Below are positions 8,668 to 23,761 of a DNA stretch of 34,639 bases, piece after piece. Where the stretch lies: the NCBI GenBank assembly GCA_030608005.1, contig JAUWIX010000013.1, forward strand, positions 1 through 34,639, read 5' to 3'. Source of the stretch: Dehalococcoidia bacterium (GTDB lineage: Bacteria > Chloroflexota > Dehalococcoidia > Dehalococcoidales > BS750m-G39). The position numbers and the translations under genes are program-made. Numbering within the stretch: position 1 is the stretch's first letter; every line of letters begins with the position of its first letter. The notes beneath the pieces are model-generated. The model had not been told where the DNA came from, did not search any database, and saw only the letters and a list, made by a program, of their open reading frames with translations.

Positions 8668-9615
8668 CTAGGCGAATAGCCGTGGGCAAGAAAACCTCAA
8701 CCTTGGTATATGTAAAGAGGGCAAAGAAATTCGCTTTCTGGAGGGCTCGCCTTCGCCAGCATCCTGCCTGATACTGCTCGCCTTCTCCCTCAAGGCTAAA
8801 ATCAAAGTCCCGGGACCACCATGAACCCCTAACGCTGGTCCCAGCCTAGCTATATGAATCCGTTCCCGGTCAAAGATAGAGGCTATGCGCTCCTTGAGTG
8901 AGCCGGCTTCATCAGGTGTGGTGCTATGAACAATGGCTAATTCCTGGATATTCAAGGTGTTCTTTACCAGGTCAAATAAACGGTCTATGCCTTTGGAGCG
9001 GGTACGGGCTAAACCAGCTTGAACAAGCTCACCATCCCGCATGGTAATTAAGGGCTTCACATTAAGCAAAGTGCCCACCATTGCCCTGGCTTTACTAATA
9101 CGCCCACCTAAAAGCAGGTATTTAAGGGTATCAAAAACACCGAATAGGCGAATACTAGGAATAGTCTGCCTTACCTCCTCCATTACCGCCTGCAAGCTTT
9201 CTCCCGCCTCAGCCAATCTGGCAGCCGCCATAGCTATCAACCCTAAGCCCATAGACGTTGAAAGCGAGTCTACTACCTCAATTTGGCAACCTGCCTTTAC
9301 CAGCTCCCTGCCCTGTAACGCTGAGTTATGGGTGCCGCTTAATTTGCTGGTAACCTGGATGGAGACTATCTCATCGGTCTCCTTTGACAGCTTACTGTAG
9401 ACATCGGCGAAGTCGGCAGGCGTAGGCTGGGAGGTAGATGGATGAACTGGGCTCTCCACTAATTTTTGGTAAAATTCATCCTCGCTTATGTCCACCCTAT
9501 CCCGGTAGACCTTTTCTCCAAAGCGTAGATAGACTGGCACCACGGTAATCCCCAGCTCCTGAGCCAATTGGACCGGGAGGTCAGCAGTGCTATCGGTAAC
9601 AATCTTGACTGTCAT
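8668..9615 (-). CDS. DegV/FakB-family fatty-acid-binding protein (copy 1, with basic C-terminal tail)
   Basis: A DegV-fold protein of 315 residues beginning MTVKIVTDSTADLP. Residues T61-S62 (in TSQPTP) and S93 (in SKLSGTH), plus the late HGGPGT motif, match positions that bind the fatty-acid carboxylate in characterised FakB proteins. It is the most canonical of the three copies. Unlike typical members (about 280 residues) it ends in an extra Ser/Arg/Pro-rich basic tail of roughly 35 residues (SRKRISLPSLHIPRLRFS). It is followed immediately by recG and preceded by another FakB 28 bp away. The likely role is delivering exogenous or recycled fatty acids to FakA for acyl-phosphate formation. Confidence 0.88.
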   Translation of the reverse strand: MTVKIVTDSTADLPVQLAQELGITVVPVYLRFGEKVYRDRVDISEDEFYQKLVESPVHPSTSQPTPADFADVYSKLSKETDEIVSIQVTSKLSGTHNSALQGRELVKAGCQIEVVDSLSTSMGLGLIAMAAARLAEAGESLQAVMEEVRQTIPSIRLFGVFDTLKYLLLGGRISKARAMVGTLLNVKPLITMRDGELVQAGLARTRSKGIDRLFDLVKNTLNIQELAIVHSTTPDEAGSLKERIASIFDRERIHIARLGPALGVHGGPGTLILALREKASSIRQDAGEGEPSRKRISLPSLHIPRLRFSCPRLFA

Positions 9616-9643
9616 AAAAGCCTCCTACCCTTGCTTAATAGCT

Positions 9644-10483
9644 TTATCTATCCCCCAATATAGCTACCAACAGGAGACCGGGACCGGTATGTGTCCCGAT
9701 TACGGGGGTCATTTTTGAGCGGTAGATGCGCTCTGTGGGAAATATAGGGCTGAGCCGCTCAACCAGCGCCTCGGCTTCAGCAGGACAGTCAGTATCCTCT
9801 ACCGCCATCTCCTCAATATGGGAATAGCTCATAGCAAAGTCATATAAATAGTCTATTGCCTTAGCCCGGGAGCGGGTTCTGCCAGCAGGCTCAACCAACC
9901 CATCTTTTATGGTTATAATAGGATTTATCTTAAGCATTGACCCCAGCAAAGCCTGTGCCTTGCCGATACGCCCTCCCCTTTTGAGATACTCCAGGGTATC
10001 AAAGGCGGCACGAAAATCTACACGAGGAATGGTGTTTCGGGTTAGAGCTATCACCTCATCAAGGCTAGCCCCAGCGTTTGCTGCCTTAGCCGCAGTCATA
10101 ACTACGAATCCCTCTGCCATAGTAGCCCATTGCGAATCAACTACTTCTACCCGGCATTTCCGCTTCATTAGCCCTATACTTTGTAACGCCACCTCAAAGG
10201 TAGCACTAAGCTTGGAGCTAAGAATAATAGCCAGGATTTCATCCGTCTCTTCAGCTAGCTTATTATACGCCTCGGCAAAGGCTCCAGGCGACGGCACTGA
10301 AGTAACCGGTAGGGCTTTAGTGTACCTCAGCTTACGGTAGAACTGCTCAGCAGTCAGGTCAATGCCATCACGGTAGACCTTTTCGCCAAAACGGACATTT
10401 AGTGGAATGGCGGTAATGCCCAGCTCCCCAGCCACCTGAGATGGCACATCAGCGACGCTATCGGTAACAATCCTGACTGTCAT
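9644..10483 (-). CDS. DegV/FakB-family fatty-acid-binding protein (copy 2)
   Basis: 279 residues starting MTVRIVTDSVADVP. It retains T61-S62 (VTSVPSPGAF), S93 (SSKLSATF) and a late THTGPG motif, so a bound fatty acid is expected. The segment after VDS reads QWATMAEGFVVM, unlike copy 1 (LSTSMGLGLI), and resembles copy 3, so copies 2 and 3 appear to be the more recent duplicates. It lies 5 bp from copy 3 and 28 bp from copy 1. Different pocket residues suggest a different preferred acyl chain; that is inference. Confidence 0.88.
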   Translation of the reverse strand: MTVRIVTDSVADVPSQVAGELGITAIPLNVRFGEKVYRDGIDLTAEQFYRKLRYTKALPVTSVPSPGAFAEAYNKLAEETDEILAIILSSKLSATFEVALQSIGLMKRKCRVEVVDSQWATMAEGFVVMTAAKAANAGASLDEVIALTRNTIPRVDFRAAFDTLEYLKRGGRIGKAQALLGSMLKINPIITIKDGLVEPAGRTRSRAKAIDYLYDFAMSYSHIEEMAVEDTDCPAEAEALVERLSPIFPTERIYRSKMTPVIGTHTGPGLLLVAILGDR

Positions 10484-10488
10484 AGCTA

Positions 10489-11328
10489 TTATTTATCTCC
10501 CAGCACAGCTACCCCCAGAACCCGGGGACCAACATGCGCTCCAATTACTGGGCTCACCTTAGAGCGGTAGATGCGCTCTTTGGGAAATTTGGAACTAAGC
10601 CGCTCGGTCAGCTCATCTGCCTCATCAGGGGTGGTGGCATGCTCTACCGCCATCTCGTCAATATGGGAAAAGCTGGCAGCAAAGTTATATAAGTAATCTA
10701 TCGCCTTAGCCCGGGAGCGCTCCCTGGCAAAAGGAAACACTTCACCGTCTCTTAAACCGAGGACAGGGCTCACCTTGAGCACCGACCCCAGAAAAGCCTG
10801 TGCCTTACCAATGCGCCCGCCCCTTTTAAGGTATTCCAGGGTGTCCAAAACCATACGAACATCCACCCGGGGGATATTGAAGTGAGCTAGAGCCACCACC
10901 TCATCAAGGCTAGCCCCAGCGTCTGCTGCCTTAGCCGCAGCAATAACTATCAAACCCTGCGCCATAACAGCCCACAAGGAATCAACCACCTCTACTCGGC
11001 ATTTCCTCTTCATTAGCTCTTTAGCTTGTAGGGCTGCCTCATAGGCGGCACTGAGCTTATGGGAATTAGTAATGACAGCGATTTCGTCTGTCTCCTCAGC
11101 CAGCTTATTATATATATCAACGAACATGTCAAGGGGTGGTACTATGGTAGTGGGAAAGGTTTTGCTGTGCATCAGCTTATGGTAGAACTGGTCAGTGGTT
11201 AGGTCAACGCCATCGCGGTAGCTCTCAGTGCCAAAGAGAACATTTATCGGGATTACAGTAATTCCCAGCTCTCCAGCTACCTCAGAGGGTATGTCACCCA
11301 GACTATCGGTAACAATTTTGACTGCCAT
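10489..11328 (-). CDS. DegV/FakB-family protein (copy 3, diverged binding motif)
   Basis: The track begins at 11361, overlapping fakA. The ATG at 11328 (MAVKIVTDSLGDIP) aligns with the starts of the other two copies and follows GGGGAGGGTCC, so it is preferred (279 residues). T61 and S93 are kept, but the second residue of the TS pair is Ile (TTIVPPLDMF), and the usual late GPG is GPR (AHVGPRVLG). These changes suggest altered ligand choice or reduced kinase-partner function. It lies directly downstream of fakA (16-bp gap). Confidence 0.85.
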   Translation of the reverse strand: MAVKIVTDSLGDIPSEVAGELGITVIPINVLFGTESYRDGVDLTTDQFYHKLMHSKTFPTTIVPPLDMFVDIYNKLAEETDEIAVITNSHKLSAAYEAALQAKELMKRKCRVEVVDSLWAVMAQGLIVIAAAKAADAGASLDEVVALAHFNIPRVDVRMVLDTLEYLKRGGRIGKAQAFLGSVLKVSPVLGLRDGEVFPFARERSRAKAIDYLYNFAASFSHIDEMAVEHATTPDEADELTERLSSKFPKERIYRSKVSPVIGAHVGPRVLGVAVLGDK

Positions 11329-11344
11329 AACAGGACCCTCCCCT

Positions 11345-12979
11345 TTACTCCACAGAAACAATATAGTTATAGTGAGGCTGACCGCCTGGAACTACCTCAA
11401 CCTGAAGTTGGGGGTGTTGTTGACGAATGGTGACGCCGACCTGCTCCGCTTCAGCCGGCTTGGTATCAGCCCCGTGGTAGATGGTAATCACCTCAGCGGA
11501 ATCTAAATCTACCCTAGCCAGCACCTCATTAAGAACAGCATCTGTCTTATCACCCACGGCTACCAGGTCTCCATCCAGAAAGCCGATTGCCTGTTTCTTC
11601 TTGATGTCCAATCCACCTAGCCGAGTTGAGCGTATAGCCCGGGTAATTTCAATAGACTTTACTGCTGATTTCGCTCTGTTCATATTCTGAGTGTTCGTTT
11701 CCAGGTCAGCCTCATAATCAAAGGCTAAAAGAGCAGCTACTCCCTGCGGGATTGTTTTGGCGGGCACCACTTCAATTGTTTTGGTGGTCAAGGACTGGAC
11801 TTGATTAGCGGTAAGCACTATATTTTTATTGTTAGGCAAAATAATAACCTTTTCCGAAACCACTGAGTCCACAGCCTGGAGCAAATCCTTGGTGCTGGGG
11901 TTCATTGTCTGTCCCCCGTGCACAATAGCTGTTGCTCCGAGGCTGGTAAAAACATTACTTAGACCCTCCCCAGCAACCACAGCCACAATAGCAATATCAA
12001 CCGCTGGCATCCTCTCCCTGCGCATCTCCAAGAAATCCCGGTACTGCTCATCCATATTGCGTATATTTATCTGATGCAAAGTGCCCAGGGGAATAACATA
12101 GCTCATAATATCACCAGGGTCTAAGGTATGAATATGAACCCTGACTGCTGAGTTGTCACCAACTACAATCACAGATTGCCCTCTCTTTTCCAGCCTCTTC
12201 CTAAGCTTATCAGGGTTAAGCCTTTGCCCCTTAATCACAAAATTAGTGCAATACCCGTAGGGCACTTCCTCTGCGCCCACCATTTGTGGCACTTTAGCAA
12301 TGAGTGGTACGCTACTGGCGATCATCCAGGGTCTGCGTAGCTTCAACTGCTCTACCTCGCCTTTAAGGTAGTGGAGAGCACCCTCCAGAATGGTATATAA
12401 ACCTTGCCCCCCAGCGTCCACCACCCCCGCTTCCATCAACACAGGCAGAAGACTAGGGGTATTAGCCACCGACTCCTTGGCAGCACCGACTGTAGCTTCC
12501 ATAACCGAGACTACATCATCACTAACATTAGAAGCATGCGCCTGGGCAGCCGATGCCGCCTCTCTAATTACGGTAAGGATAGTCCCTTCTACGGGATTGC
12601 TTAACCCTTTATACGCCACCGTTGATGCCTGTAGTAAAGCAGCAGCCAGTTCACTGCCAGTAAATGACTCCTTCTGTGCCAAACCCTGTGCCAAACCCTT
12701 CCAAATCTGGGACAGAATTACCCCGCTATTGCCCCGAGCCCCCATCAGTGCCCCCCTAGACATAGCTTGAGCTACGCTTGAAGCACTACCCTCAGAAGCT
12801 TGATAGGCTTCCTCCATAGAGGAACGCATGGTAAGCAGCATATTAGTCCCTGTATCTCCATCAGGCACCGGGAAGACATTCAGGGCATCAATATCTGCGG
12901 CGCTCTTCTCCAACCAGTCAGTGGCGGCAGCAAACATTTCCCTTAAATCTTGCCCAGTGATAGAATCGGCTTGTCCCAT
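11345..12979 (-). CDS. fakA: DAK/DhaL-domain fatty-acid kinase subunit (FakA-like)
   Basis: A 544-residue protein of the FakA/YloV type. The N-terminal DhaL ATP-binding domain carries NVFPVPDGDTGTNM (residues 34-47), whose aspartates bind Mg-ATP, followed by RGNSGVILSQ and DAGGQGLY. The middle (VPYGYCTNFVIKG..VVGDNSAVRVHIHTLDPG) is the domain with the essential Cys and the His-x-His pair of this family. The C-terminal DegV-like domain has ILPNNKNIVLTA. In known systems FakA phosphorylates fatty acids held by FakB. Here one kinase precedes three FakB genes in a single operon. Its start follows AAGGATAGGATAAG. Confidence 0.92.
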   Translation of the reverse strand: MGQADSITGQDLREMFAAATDWLEKSAADIDALNVFPVPDGDTGTNMLLTMRSSMEEAYQASEGSASSVAQAMSRGALMGARGNSGVILSQIWKGLAQGLAQKESFTGSELAAALLQASTVAYKGLSNPVEGTILTVIREAASAAQAHASNVSDDVVSVMEATVGAAKESVANTPSLLPVLMEAGVVDAGGQGLYTILEGALHYLKGEVEQLKLRRPWMIASSVPLIAKVPQMVGAEEVPYGYCTNFVIKGQRLNPDKLRKRLEKRGQSVIVVGDNSAVRVHIHTLDPGDIMSYVIPLGTLHQINIRNMDEQYRDFLEMRRERMPAVDIAIVAVVAGEGLSNVFTSLGATAIVHGGQTMNPSTKDLLQAVDSVVSEKVIILPNNKNIVLTANQVQSLTTKTIEVVPAKTIPQGVAALLAFDYEADLETNTQNMNRAKSAVKSIEITRAIRSTRLGGLDIKKKQAIGFLDGDLVAVGDKTDAVLNEVLARVDLDSAEVITIYHGADTKPAEAEQVGVTIRQQHPQLQVEVVPGGQPHYNYIVSVE

Positions 12980-21490: not shown

Positions 21491-21655
21491 ATTCTACCTC
21501 ACCCCTTAGATATTTACTTAGCAACCCTCCCCCTTTAAGCACCCAGAAAAATCTTTGATTTTCCTGGGGACCCGCTTTATCCCCCTCCCTTACAAGGGAG
21601 GGGGAAGATTTGTTTTTGAGAGGGACTTTGCCCCTCTAAAACTCCTCTCATATAA
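21491..21655 (+). repeat. Two-palindrome repeat, composite copy 6
   Basis: A composite copy between argD and argB. It starts ctacctcacccc, then contains an extra hairpin CCCAGAAAAATC-ttt-GATTTTCCTGGG (21542-21568) not found in other copies, then the standard CCCCCTCCCTTacAAGGGAGGGGG and GAGGGACTTTGCCCCTC arms. The inserted hairpin may be a nested element or a terminator-like structure. Confidence 0.75.
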
Positions 21656-22453
21656 TTACTTCCCTATGGTGGTGCCACCACCACCTCCTCCTCCTCCTCC
21701 TTCCATTTCATTGAGCAAGGCGTGCCGCTGCCGACCATCTATGATGCGAGTAGTTGAAGTGCCAGACAAAGCTCTCAGGCAGGCTTTAATCTTGGGAATC
21801 ATCCCCCCTGAAGCCACACCTGAAGCCACCAGAGCTTCAGCTTCATCAGGTGATAGACGAGACAGCAAATTGCCTGATTGGTCACAGATACCAACTACAT
21901 CGGTCAAAAAGATAAGCCTCTCGGCACCAATGGCGGCAGCAATTTCACCAGCTACAGCATCAGCATTGATGTTAAGCACCTGCAGCGCTTTATCTGGCTT
22001 ATCAGTAGCATGAAGGCTAACCGGAGCAATTACCGGGATATAGCCAGACTTTAGTAGTGCTTCTAGGGGAGCGGGATTTACTTTCGCCACCGTGCCAACA
22101 TAGCCCAGCTCCTCGTCCTTAATCCTGCCTTGAATGAAAGCTCCGTCCACGCCGCTAATACCTACCGCATTTCCACCCAAGCTATTGATAGCAGCTACAA
22201 TCTCCTTATTGACCAGTCCAGCCAGCACTGAAATCACCACCTCAAGCGTGGCCTCATCGGTTACCCGCTCGCCGTGGACAAATCGGCTAGAAATCCCTTG
22301 CTTTTCAAGCCAATCGGTTATCAGTTTACCACCGCCATGGACTACAACCAATGATTTACCCTGCTGCTGGAGATAAACTATGTCCTCAACAGTGGTACCC
22401 AAGGTGGCACCACCGAGCTTAACTACGATAATGGAATTATTTATTAACCTCAC
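21656..22453 (-). CDS. argB: Acetylglutamate kinase
   Basis: Phosphorylates N-acetylglutamate, the committed step of ornithine synthesis. Core motifs are IIVVKLGGATLG, VVVHGGGKLITDWLEK, NINADAVAGEIAAAIGA and LIFLTDVVGICD. The ORF runs upstream to 22540, but its first 29 codons are a translated repeat copy (PSPLKERGIKGVRLIN resembles the same translation of copy 5). The GTG at 22453, on the repeat's boundary, gives VRLINNSIIVVKLGG, close to the usual start-to-motif distance (265 residues), and is preferred. The C-terminus ends with nine consecutive glycines (MEGGGGGGGGGTTIGK) encoded by a GGA/GGT triplet tract, replacing the usual G-x-GT ending. Confidence 0.9.
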   Translation of the reverse strand: MRLINNSIIVVKLGGATLGTTVEDIVYLQQQGKSLVVVHGGGKLITDWLEKQGISSRFVHGERVTDEATLEVVISVLAGLVNKEIVAAINSLGGNAVGISGVDGAFIQGRIKDEELGYVGTVAKVNPAPLEALLKSGYIPVIAPVSLHATDKPDKALQVLNINADAVAGEIAAAIGAERLIFLTDVVGICDQSGNLLSRLSPDEAEALVASGVASGGMIPKIKACLRALSGTSTTRIIDGRQRHALLNEMEGGGGGGGGGTTIGK

Positions 22454-22530
22454 CCCCTTGATCCCCCTCTCCTTCAAAGGAGAGGGGGAAATACAGATTC
22501 TGAAGGGGCGAAGCCCCTTCACTCTCCCCT
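22441..22530 (+). repeat. Two-palindrome repeat, copy 7, overlapping the argB 5' end
   Basis: Attaacctcacccccttgat, palindrome CCCCCTCTCCTTcAAAGGAGAGGGGG, and hairpin GAAGGGGCgaaGCCCCTTC. On the minus strand this occupies the argJ-argB gap and reads in frame into argB. The reverse complement of its cacccccttgatcc end supplies the likely GTG start and purine-rich upstream sequence. Confidence 0.85.
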
Positions 22531-22543
22531 TAATAAACAAAAA

Positions 22544-23761
22544 TCAGGTCATGTAGCGACTGTTAATAGTTACATATTCCTCAGACAGGTCGCAACCCCA
22601 GGCGGTGGCTTTGCCGGAGCCCAGGTTAAGGTTCAAATTTATAGATACCTCTCTTCCCTTTAATAGCTGGATTACACTTCGCTTACTAAAGGGCAAGGGT
22701 CTGCCCGCCTTTACCAACGGGATATCGCCAATATAAAGGTCAGTCTTTGATTCCACCATCTCCACCCCACTCCGCCCCACCGCCGCCATAACCCGCCCCC
22801 AATTAGGGTCAGCGCCATGAACCGCCGCCTTCACCAGGAGCGAGGTTACCACTGTTCTGGCAGCCAGCCTAGCTTCAGCAAGACCGGGGGCACCAACGAC
22901 AGTTACCTCAATAAGCTTAGTCGCCCCCTCACCGTCACGAGCAATACATTTAGCCAAATAGATACAAACTTGCTCAAGGGCTTGCTGAAAAGCATCAGCC
23001 CGCTCACTACCTGATGACACTGGCTCGCTTTCTGCCAGTCCATTAGCCATTATAAGCACCATATCATTAGGGCTGGTATCGCCATCAATAGAAATCATAT
23101 TAAAGGAGATGTCCACCGCCTTTTTCAGAGCCGATTGGAGAAAATCTATTTCTACGGCGGCGTCGGTGGTGAGGAAGCAAAGCAAAGTTGCCAGATTGGG
23201 GTGAATCATCCCTGAGCCTTTGGCTACCCCACCAATGGAGAACTTATTGCCATCTTTCTTGACCGCCACCGCCGTTTCCTTAGCTAAGGTATCAGTAGTC
23301 ATCATCGCCTTTGCCAGCTCATGACCACCATTACGAGAAAGGATAACCTGTTCTATACCACTTCTTATGCGCTTCATCGGTAGCGGCAGACCAATCACCC
23401 CGGTGCTGGCAACCAGGACATCCTCAGGCAATATTCCGATGCCCTCGGCGGTTAGCTTTGCCATCTCAGTGGCATGGGTAAGACCCTTTCCACCGGTAAA
23501 GGCATTGGCACAACCGCTATTTACCACCACTGCCAGGGCTCTCCCTTGTTGTAGCCTTTGCTGACACAAAACCAACGGGGCTGCCTTAATACGATTGGTG
23601 GTAAATAAACCTGTAGCCACACAGGGCGCCTCAGAAAAGAGGATGCCAAGGTCTAGTTTATCTCTGGCTTTTTTACTTATCCCGGCGCAGGTAGCACCGG
23701 CAAAAAAACCCTCAGGCGAAGTAACACCGCCTTCAGGAATGAACTCAATTTCGGCTTCCAC
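22544..23761 (-). CDS. argJ: Bifunctional ornithine acetyltransferase / N-acetylglutamate synthase
   Basis: Recycles the acetyl group from N-acetylornithine to glutamate, and in bifunctional forms also makes N-acetylglutamate from acetyl-CoA. 405 residues. The self-cleavage site is visible as KGSGMIHPNLATLLCFLTTD, with Thr192 as the new N-terminal nucleophile. VVNSGCANAFTG, STGVIGLPLP, DGDTSPNDMVLIM and GADPNWGRVMAAVGRSG are all conserved. It starts with GTG, without a Shine-Dalgarno, just 9 nt after a -10 box. It is the first gene of the arginine cluster in this window; argC is not present. Whether it is mono- or bifunctional cannot be told by eye. Confidence 0.95.
   Translation of the reverse strand: MEAEIEFIPEGGVTSPEGFFAGATCAGISKKARDKLDLGILFSEAPCVATGLFTTNRIKAAPLVLCQQRLQQGRALAVVVNSGCANAFTGGKGLTHATEMAKLTAEGIGILPEDVLVASTGVIGLPLPMKRIRSGIEQVILSRNGGHELAKAMMTTDTLAKETAVAVKKDGNKFSIGGVAKGSGMIHPNLATLLCFLTTDAAVEIDFLQSALKKAVDISFNMISIDGDTSPNDMVLIMANGLAESEPVSSGSERADAFQQALEQVCIYLAKCIARDGEGATKLIEVTVVGAPGLAEARLAARTVVTSLLVKAAVHGADPNWGRVMAAVGRSGVEMVESKTDLYIGDIPLVKAGRPLPFSKRSVIQLLKGREVSINLNLNLGSGKATAWGCDLSEEYVTINSRYMT

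Follow-up and report, generated by a model that had tools for sequence, protein, structure and literature searches.

A dispersed palindromic repeat probably provides the translation start of argB, and likely those of further genes, in Dehalococcoidales

In function, the nearest parallel to the repeat described here are the SAS/ESAS elements of Cluster K mycobacteriophages. SAS is a 13-bp sequence, GGGATAGGAGCCC, that occurs in 11–19 copies in the phage genomes and is followed by native start codons; like the present repeat, it contains a Shine-Dalgarno core that engages in extended pairing with 16S and lies shortly before the starts of unrelated genes, and about half of the copies have an inverted repeat immediately upstream (PMC3203893). 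Rickettsia palindromic elements (RPE) are about 150 bp long and encode a conserved peptide inside genes; they are short dispersed palindromes fused in frame with unrelated genes (reviewed in PMC10969869). The pneumococcal BOX elements are small interspersed repeats that overlap genes, encoding the stop codon of 36 genes and the start codons of some short transcribed open reading frames, which have neither a good Shine-Dalgarno sequence nor a known function (PMC3049150). In marine Beggiatoaceae, TAACTGA repeats immediately precede start codons, at the ribosome-binding site, with one orientation prevailing, and a translational role has been proposed for them (PMC4679880). REP/BIME elements with their RAYT transposases are a further example of abundant intergenic palindromes. 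REP elements are not known to serve as start codons.

The window, i.e., the entire stretch of 34,639 nucleotides analyzed here, is contig C6 of G000, the genome of an uncultured bacterium (1.12 Mb in 38 contigs) whose near relatives are MAGs titled Dehalococcoidia or Dehalococcoidales. The features relevant to the argJ-argB locus are the following:

22544..23761, minus strand: argJ, the upstream gene of the operon, with its stop codon at 22546–22544 (NF003802, 486 bits).
22437..22530, plus strand (consensus orientation): copy of the palindromic repeat in the argJ-argB gap, head at 22437 and tail at about 22530 (nhmmer match 22437–22520 to model positions 2–85; boundaries from 161 extended copies).
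22501..22521, no strand: second palindrome or hairpin, TGAAGGGGCGAAGCCCCTTCA, seen in the sequence, with a 9-bp stem in the RNA fold.
22462..22489, no strand: main palindrome or hairpin, TCCCCCTCTCCTTCAAAGGAGAGGGGGA, from the repeat search; its stem is 12 bp long in the fold computed for the argB leader RNA.
22450..22459, minus strand: extended Shine-Dalgarno sequence AAGGGGGTGA in the repeat head, from the duplex with the 16S 3' end.
22451..22453, minus strand: GTG, the candidate argB start of the original prediction, in frame and overlapping the extended Shine-Dalgarno sequence; another Shine-Dalgarno sequence lies 9 nt upstream in a hairpin arm.
22442..22444, minus strand: ATA, possible argB start whose Shine-Dalgarno sequence has the best spacing; the layout matches the forced ATA of ispD and of a phosphohexomutase gene.
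22439..22441, minus strand: AAT, the codon that corresponds to the native ATG or TTG start in repeat-free relatives, from the comparison of Dehalococcoidales argB loci.
21656..22453 (to 22444 if ATA is used), minus strand: argB, acetylglutamate kinase (TIGR00761, 229 bits; PF00696, 157 bits).

The argB frame on the minus strand is open from 22543 across the repeat into the kinase without a stop, just as the original prediction had it. Residues 39–263 of this long frame match the N-acetylglutamate kinase model TIGR00761 with 229.1 bits (cut-off 151.3), and kinase family models begin at residue 38–39. The gene is full length and under purifying selection, with dN/dS values of 0.09–0.20 against relatives and of 0.16–0.20 against the three nearest. 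At its 3' end a GGN microsatellite (window 21659–21700) encodes nine glycines followed by TTIGK, compared with QGKGTGTTIKK in L017 of G004, and a second repeat copy follows directly downstream of argB (21570–21645).

The repeat, too, proved to be real. A profile iterated from the window copies, with the consensus GTTATTTATTAACCTCACCCCCTTTATCCCCCTCCCCTTTTAAGGGGAGGGGGAAAAAGTTTTTTAAGAGGGGCTTCGCCCCTCTTAAACTCC, yielded 481 raw matches in G000, corresponding to 254 non-redundant copies of a dispersed palindrome of about 95 bp, and 228 of them span more than 60 model positions. With an RNA model, scored on at most 70 candidates per genome, the repeat was found in at least 49 of the 61 genomes surveyed in the order. 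Most copies in G000 are intergenic. With regard to the hallmarks of MITEs, i.e., terminal inverted repeats and target-site duplication, the ends are sharp in the 161 extended copies, but no duplication is evident in the family profile. TTTATTAA/TTAATAAA flank the ends of the argB copy and are not general across the family. The Rfam search of the window gave no match above the gathering score, and a literature search on repeats in Dehalococcoidia found no description of the family, though one may exist nonetheless. We infer that the repeat is a mobile element.

The two ends of the repeat differ, and we refer to the outer end as the head and to the other as the tail. In the outward direction the head reads AAGGGGGTGAGG-TTR-ATA, in its fuller form AAGGGGGTGAGG-TTG/TTA/TAG-ATA-AAY-AAY, with the consensus AAGGGGGTGAGGTTGATAAA or GGGGATAGGGTTGATAAA. 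It thus consists of an extended Shine-Dalgarno sequence followed by well-spaced UUG and AUA codons in frame, while a GUG is located inside the Shine-Dalgarno sequence itself. This arrangement, i.e., ribosome-binding site, 16S complementarity and upstream inverted repeat, corresponds in position to SAS and should work alike. However, the head does not match the 13-bp SAS consensus and resides in a bacterial chromosome instead of a Cluster K phage, so that the repeat is not a member of that family. Unlike SAS/ESAS, the repeat of about 95 bp is present in hundreds of chromosomal copies, carries the likely start codon itself and has displaced native ones. In contrast to RPE, nearly all copies are intergenic and contribute an initiation site; in contrast to BOX, a strong Shine-Dalgarno sequence is present and conserved housekeeping genes are probably started. 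The TAACTGA repeats differ in being heptameric direct repeats of little Shine-Dalgarno character, neither palindromic nor equipped with a start codon (PMC4679880). Unlike for REP/BIME, no match to the Y1/RAYT transposase (PF01797) was obtained in G000, a MAG about 87% complete, while control searches were positive. The repeat would serve as a portable module of translation initiation. None of SAS/ESAS, RPE, BOX and TAACTGA unites palindromes dispersed in a chromosome with an extended Shine-Dalgarno sequence and the replacement of native starts. The one clear internal insertion of the RPE type is a copy of about 31 residues lying in frame between the N and C domains of a SAM hydroxide adenosyltransferase gene (L123:11037-11957, minus strand); homologues lack the insertion, and most align in two pieces around it.

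The original prediction treated argB alone, but argB turned out to have many counterparts, in which the head follows a strict polarity. Within 50 bp of a repeat edge in G000, 55 gene 5' ends face the head and a single one the tail, compared with 33 and 31 gene 3' ends (p = 8e-10). For 5' ends, the bias is still apparent at 50–100 bp (40 versus 7) and fades beyond, with 29 versus 34 at 100–200 bp. In pooled stretches of G005, G015 and G038, 28 gene starts lie within 50 bp of a head and one of a tail (p = 0.005). Note that gene starts were called by a simple coding-potential method and that repeat copies shared by descent render counts across relatives non-independent. Gene 3' ends show no polarity, which speaks against transcription as the cause of an insertion bias. 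On its own, the polarity could reflect tolerance, with heads being harmless at gene starts, rather than benefit. The head also pairs better than native starts do: its outward strand has a median energy of −10.8 kcal/mol (199 copies) with the 16S 3' end CACCUCCUUU, compared with −7.0 kcal/mol for repeat-distant ATG genes, −3.5 kcal/mol for random sites and −1.5 kcal/mol for the tail. The 16S end GGATCACCTCCTTT was taken from G005 and five others; a 16S gene was not found in G000.

To locate the native start, argB loci of several dozen distinct relatives were compared, anchored at the N-S-I-I-V-V-K stretch. In the repeat-free close relatives (G001, G002, G003, G004 and others) the argJ stop codon is followed by about 15–30 nt and then by ATG or TTG, exactly where G000 has AAT (22441–22439), and the ArgB N-terminus reads M-G-K-V-I-V-V-K versus N-N-S-I-I-V-V-K in G000. 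The comparison shows that the native ATG or TTG of argB is gone in G000, and the original prediction that the repeat was recruited as translation start is well supported. Among the relatives compared, the insertion is confined to this one MAG; L020 and L016 are among others with apparent repeats or remnants in the argJ-argB gap, and these have kept the native TTG. L019, the argB locus of G012, is preceded by ATGGAGGTGAGGGTAATAGAT, which resembles a bare repeat head and may be an old remnant or chance. The GGAGGTGAGGGTAATAGAT before the core of L019 looks like the VRLIN of G000, but an ancestral origin of these residues was rejected as the main reading, since the nearer relatives G001, G002, G003 and G004 start one codon later; the stretch in L019 may likewise stem from an old head remnant.

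In-frame candidates in G000 are TTG 22540, GTG 22522, TTG 22477, GTG 22453, ATA 22444, ATT 22432 and then TTG 22402. Downstream of the repeat, the first canonical start is TTG 22402; it is located beyond the catalytic K-L-G-G, which would be missing from the product. With the exception of the distal AUU 22432, the repeat or its margin holds all in-frame starts before K-L-G-G. Taken together, the loss of the native start, the lack of a good alternative and the constrained, full-length gene mean that argB has to start in the repeat or at its edge, the one way out being AUU 22432. Rare use of AUU as a start codon is known, and the kinase core would be complete from there (M-I-V-V-K), the repeat then contributing nothing except distant upstream sequence. 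However, the Shine-Dalgarno sequence (AAGGGGG) is located about 20 nt away, far beyond normal spacing, pairing within −20 to −4 amounts to only −6.8 kcal/mol, and three residues present in relatives would be dropped. We consider this start very unlikely.

The original prediction also offered TTG 22540, which is in frame and would add 29 codons translated from the repeat. Re-initiation after the argJ stop at this codon or at GTG 22522, adding some 26–34 repeat-coded residues, has its attractions: the frame is open, TTG 22540 lies only 3 nt past the argJ stop, as suits termination-reinitiation, and the copy inside the SAM hydroxide adenosyltransferase gene indicates that a repeat peptide can be tolerated. 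On the other hand, TTG 22540 and TTG 22477 lack a Shine-Dalgarno sequence (+0.1 and +0.8 kcal/mol, respectively) and that of GTG 22522 is weak (−6.1 kcal/mol), while the family models begin only at the kinase core. Repeat-free relatives sharing the 29 residues were sought and none was found; all compared relatives lack such an extension and start just before the core. The open frame itself was rejected as evidence for a repeat-coded N-terminus, because the equivalent frame is open over about 27 codons by chance in many repeat copies. An upstream start is therefore unlikely.

This leaves two codons in the head. GTG 22453, put forward as the only plausible start near the kinase core, is indeed in frame and in the outer end of the repeat, and it stays one of two candidates, but GTG 22522, TTG 22477, ATA 22444 and ATT 22432 had been missed. 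The repeat-derived purines upstream of it are present; however, the bases that pair (GGAGAGGGGG, −11.1 kcal/mol) sit in the arm of the stable 12-bp hairpin with a mean unpaired probability of 0.17, and the GTG is itself part of the strongest Shine-Dalgarno sequence (22459–22450). Relative to ATA 22444, the same AAGGGGGTGA lies outside the main hairpin with a spacing of 8 nt between GGGGG and ATA, and it forms a 10-bp duplex with CACCUCCUUU of the 16S 3' end, with −14.6 kcal/mol for the argB copy and −15.1 kcal/mol for the consensus head. We give about even chances to initiation at AUA 22444, which would yield M-N-N-S-I-I-V-V-K; initiation at GUG 22453, yielding M-R-L-I-N-N-S-I-I-V-V-K, is a tentative second possibility. 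We lean towards the former because of the layouts at ispD and the phosphohexomutase gene, where an in-frame TAG excludes GTG.

Similar arrangements recur elsewhere in the order. UUG, GUG or AUA codons derived from the head likely start rluD, tgt, fumB, ispD and the phosphohexomutase gene, for which repeat-free relatives have ATG. In rluD, G000 uses a head TTG and 13 of 14 relatives have an ATG aligned to the ATA of the head, while G015 has a head GTG as in argB. A head TTG is also present in tgt of G000, G002, G005 and G006 and in fumB of G000; in fumB of G006 it is replaced by ATT after an in-frame TAG. In ispD of G000 and G001, GGGGGTGAGG-TAG-ATA is found without any canonical start, and the ATA aligns with the ATG of G008. 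The phosphohexomutase gene has a head ATA in G000, G001, G005, G015 and G016 (in four of the five with an in-frame stop just before), TTG in G007 and G008, and ATG at the ATA codon in the repeat-free G004 and G009. In atpG of G000 (L128:3571-3653), CTG GCT GAT follows directly behind the head, apparently with CTG as the start, and an in-frame stop within the head rules out upstream starts. Some insertions are likely shared by descent, and not all captures are independent. These cases also bear on the concern that the argB junction is an assembly or base-calling error of the MAG, a repeat of 254 copies being a classic site of mis-assembly. Since the argJ-argB order across the repeat agrees with that in relatives, and the head-to-start layout recurs at unrelated genes in independently assembled genomes (ispD in two, the mutase gene in five), an artifact is extremely unlikely.

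We thus consider it probable that a repeat copy replaced the native start of argB with its own Shine-Dalgarno sequence and start codon, and that the same capture took place at other genes of the order. The copy would have landed between argJ and argB such that codon 2 or 3 of argB now follows its head, with loss of the native ATG or TTG. Ribosomes would then bind AAGGGGGUGA just outside both hairpins and start at AUA 22444 or GUG 22453, so that argB translation begins in the repeat head, as suggested by the absence of good alternatives. The hairpins would take up the larger part of the 90 nt between argJ and argB and probably make this gap more compact.

AUA initiation has a precedent in Staphylococcus aureus, where mapping has placed the starts of infC and ccpN at AUA codons with extended Shine-Dalgarno motifs, citZ also starts with AUA, and non-canonical start codons gave lower initiation (PMC13009471). 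In G000, G001, G003, G006 and G016, ruvB (L335-L339) has ATA behind a strong Shine-Dalgarno sequence; an in-frame stop lies upstream, the interval contains no canonical start, and no obvious full repeat is involved. Given the mapped S. aureus starts and the ATA at ruvB, an AUA start at argB is credible, probably with reduced output. Conserved genes of the order such as ruvB (L335-L339) and ispD (L130:15177) seem to be AUA-started, and AUA is possibly a routine start codon there. Some genes named by eye lack ATG, GTG and TTG at the expected start and have a Shine-Dalgarno-like sequence before it: CTG is found in a purD-like (L155:10078-11350) and a cobU-like gene (L146:14663), ACG or ATT in a topA-like gene (L142:6649-8761).

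Whether the repeat constitutes an order-wide mobile initiation module appears evenly balanced. Its extended Shine-Dalgarno sequence would be strong enough for AUA, UUG and GUG, which would have allowed repeated replacement of AUG starts of housekeeping genes and made AUA routine, including at ruvB. Dispersed palindromic repeats are usually viewed as inert or as elements of transcription or RNA stability; here, one end matches the recognition sequence of the ribosome. Heads at the starts of essential-type genes would explain how the repeat could spread into operons of a streamlined genome and leave them expressed. Mis-annotated starts are predicted for many genes. Where the same gene has AUG in one genus and a repeat-derived UUG or AUA in another, natural replicates are at hand, and head-captured genes make AUA initiation testable. 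Elsewhere in the window (8668–11361), three tandem genes share related stretches (9425–9616, 10293–10484 and 11138–11329) with 66–73% identity and appear to be tandem paralogues.
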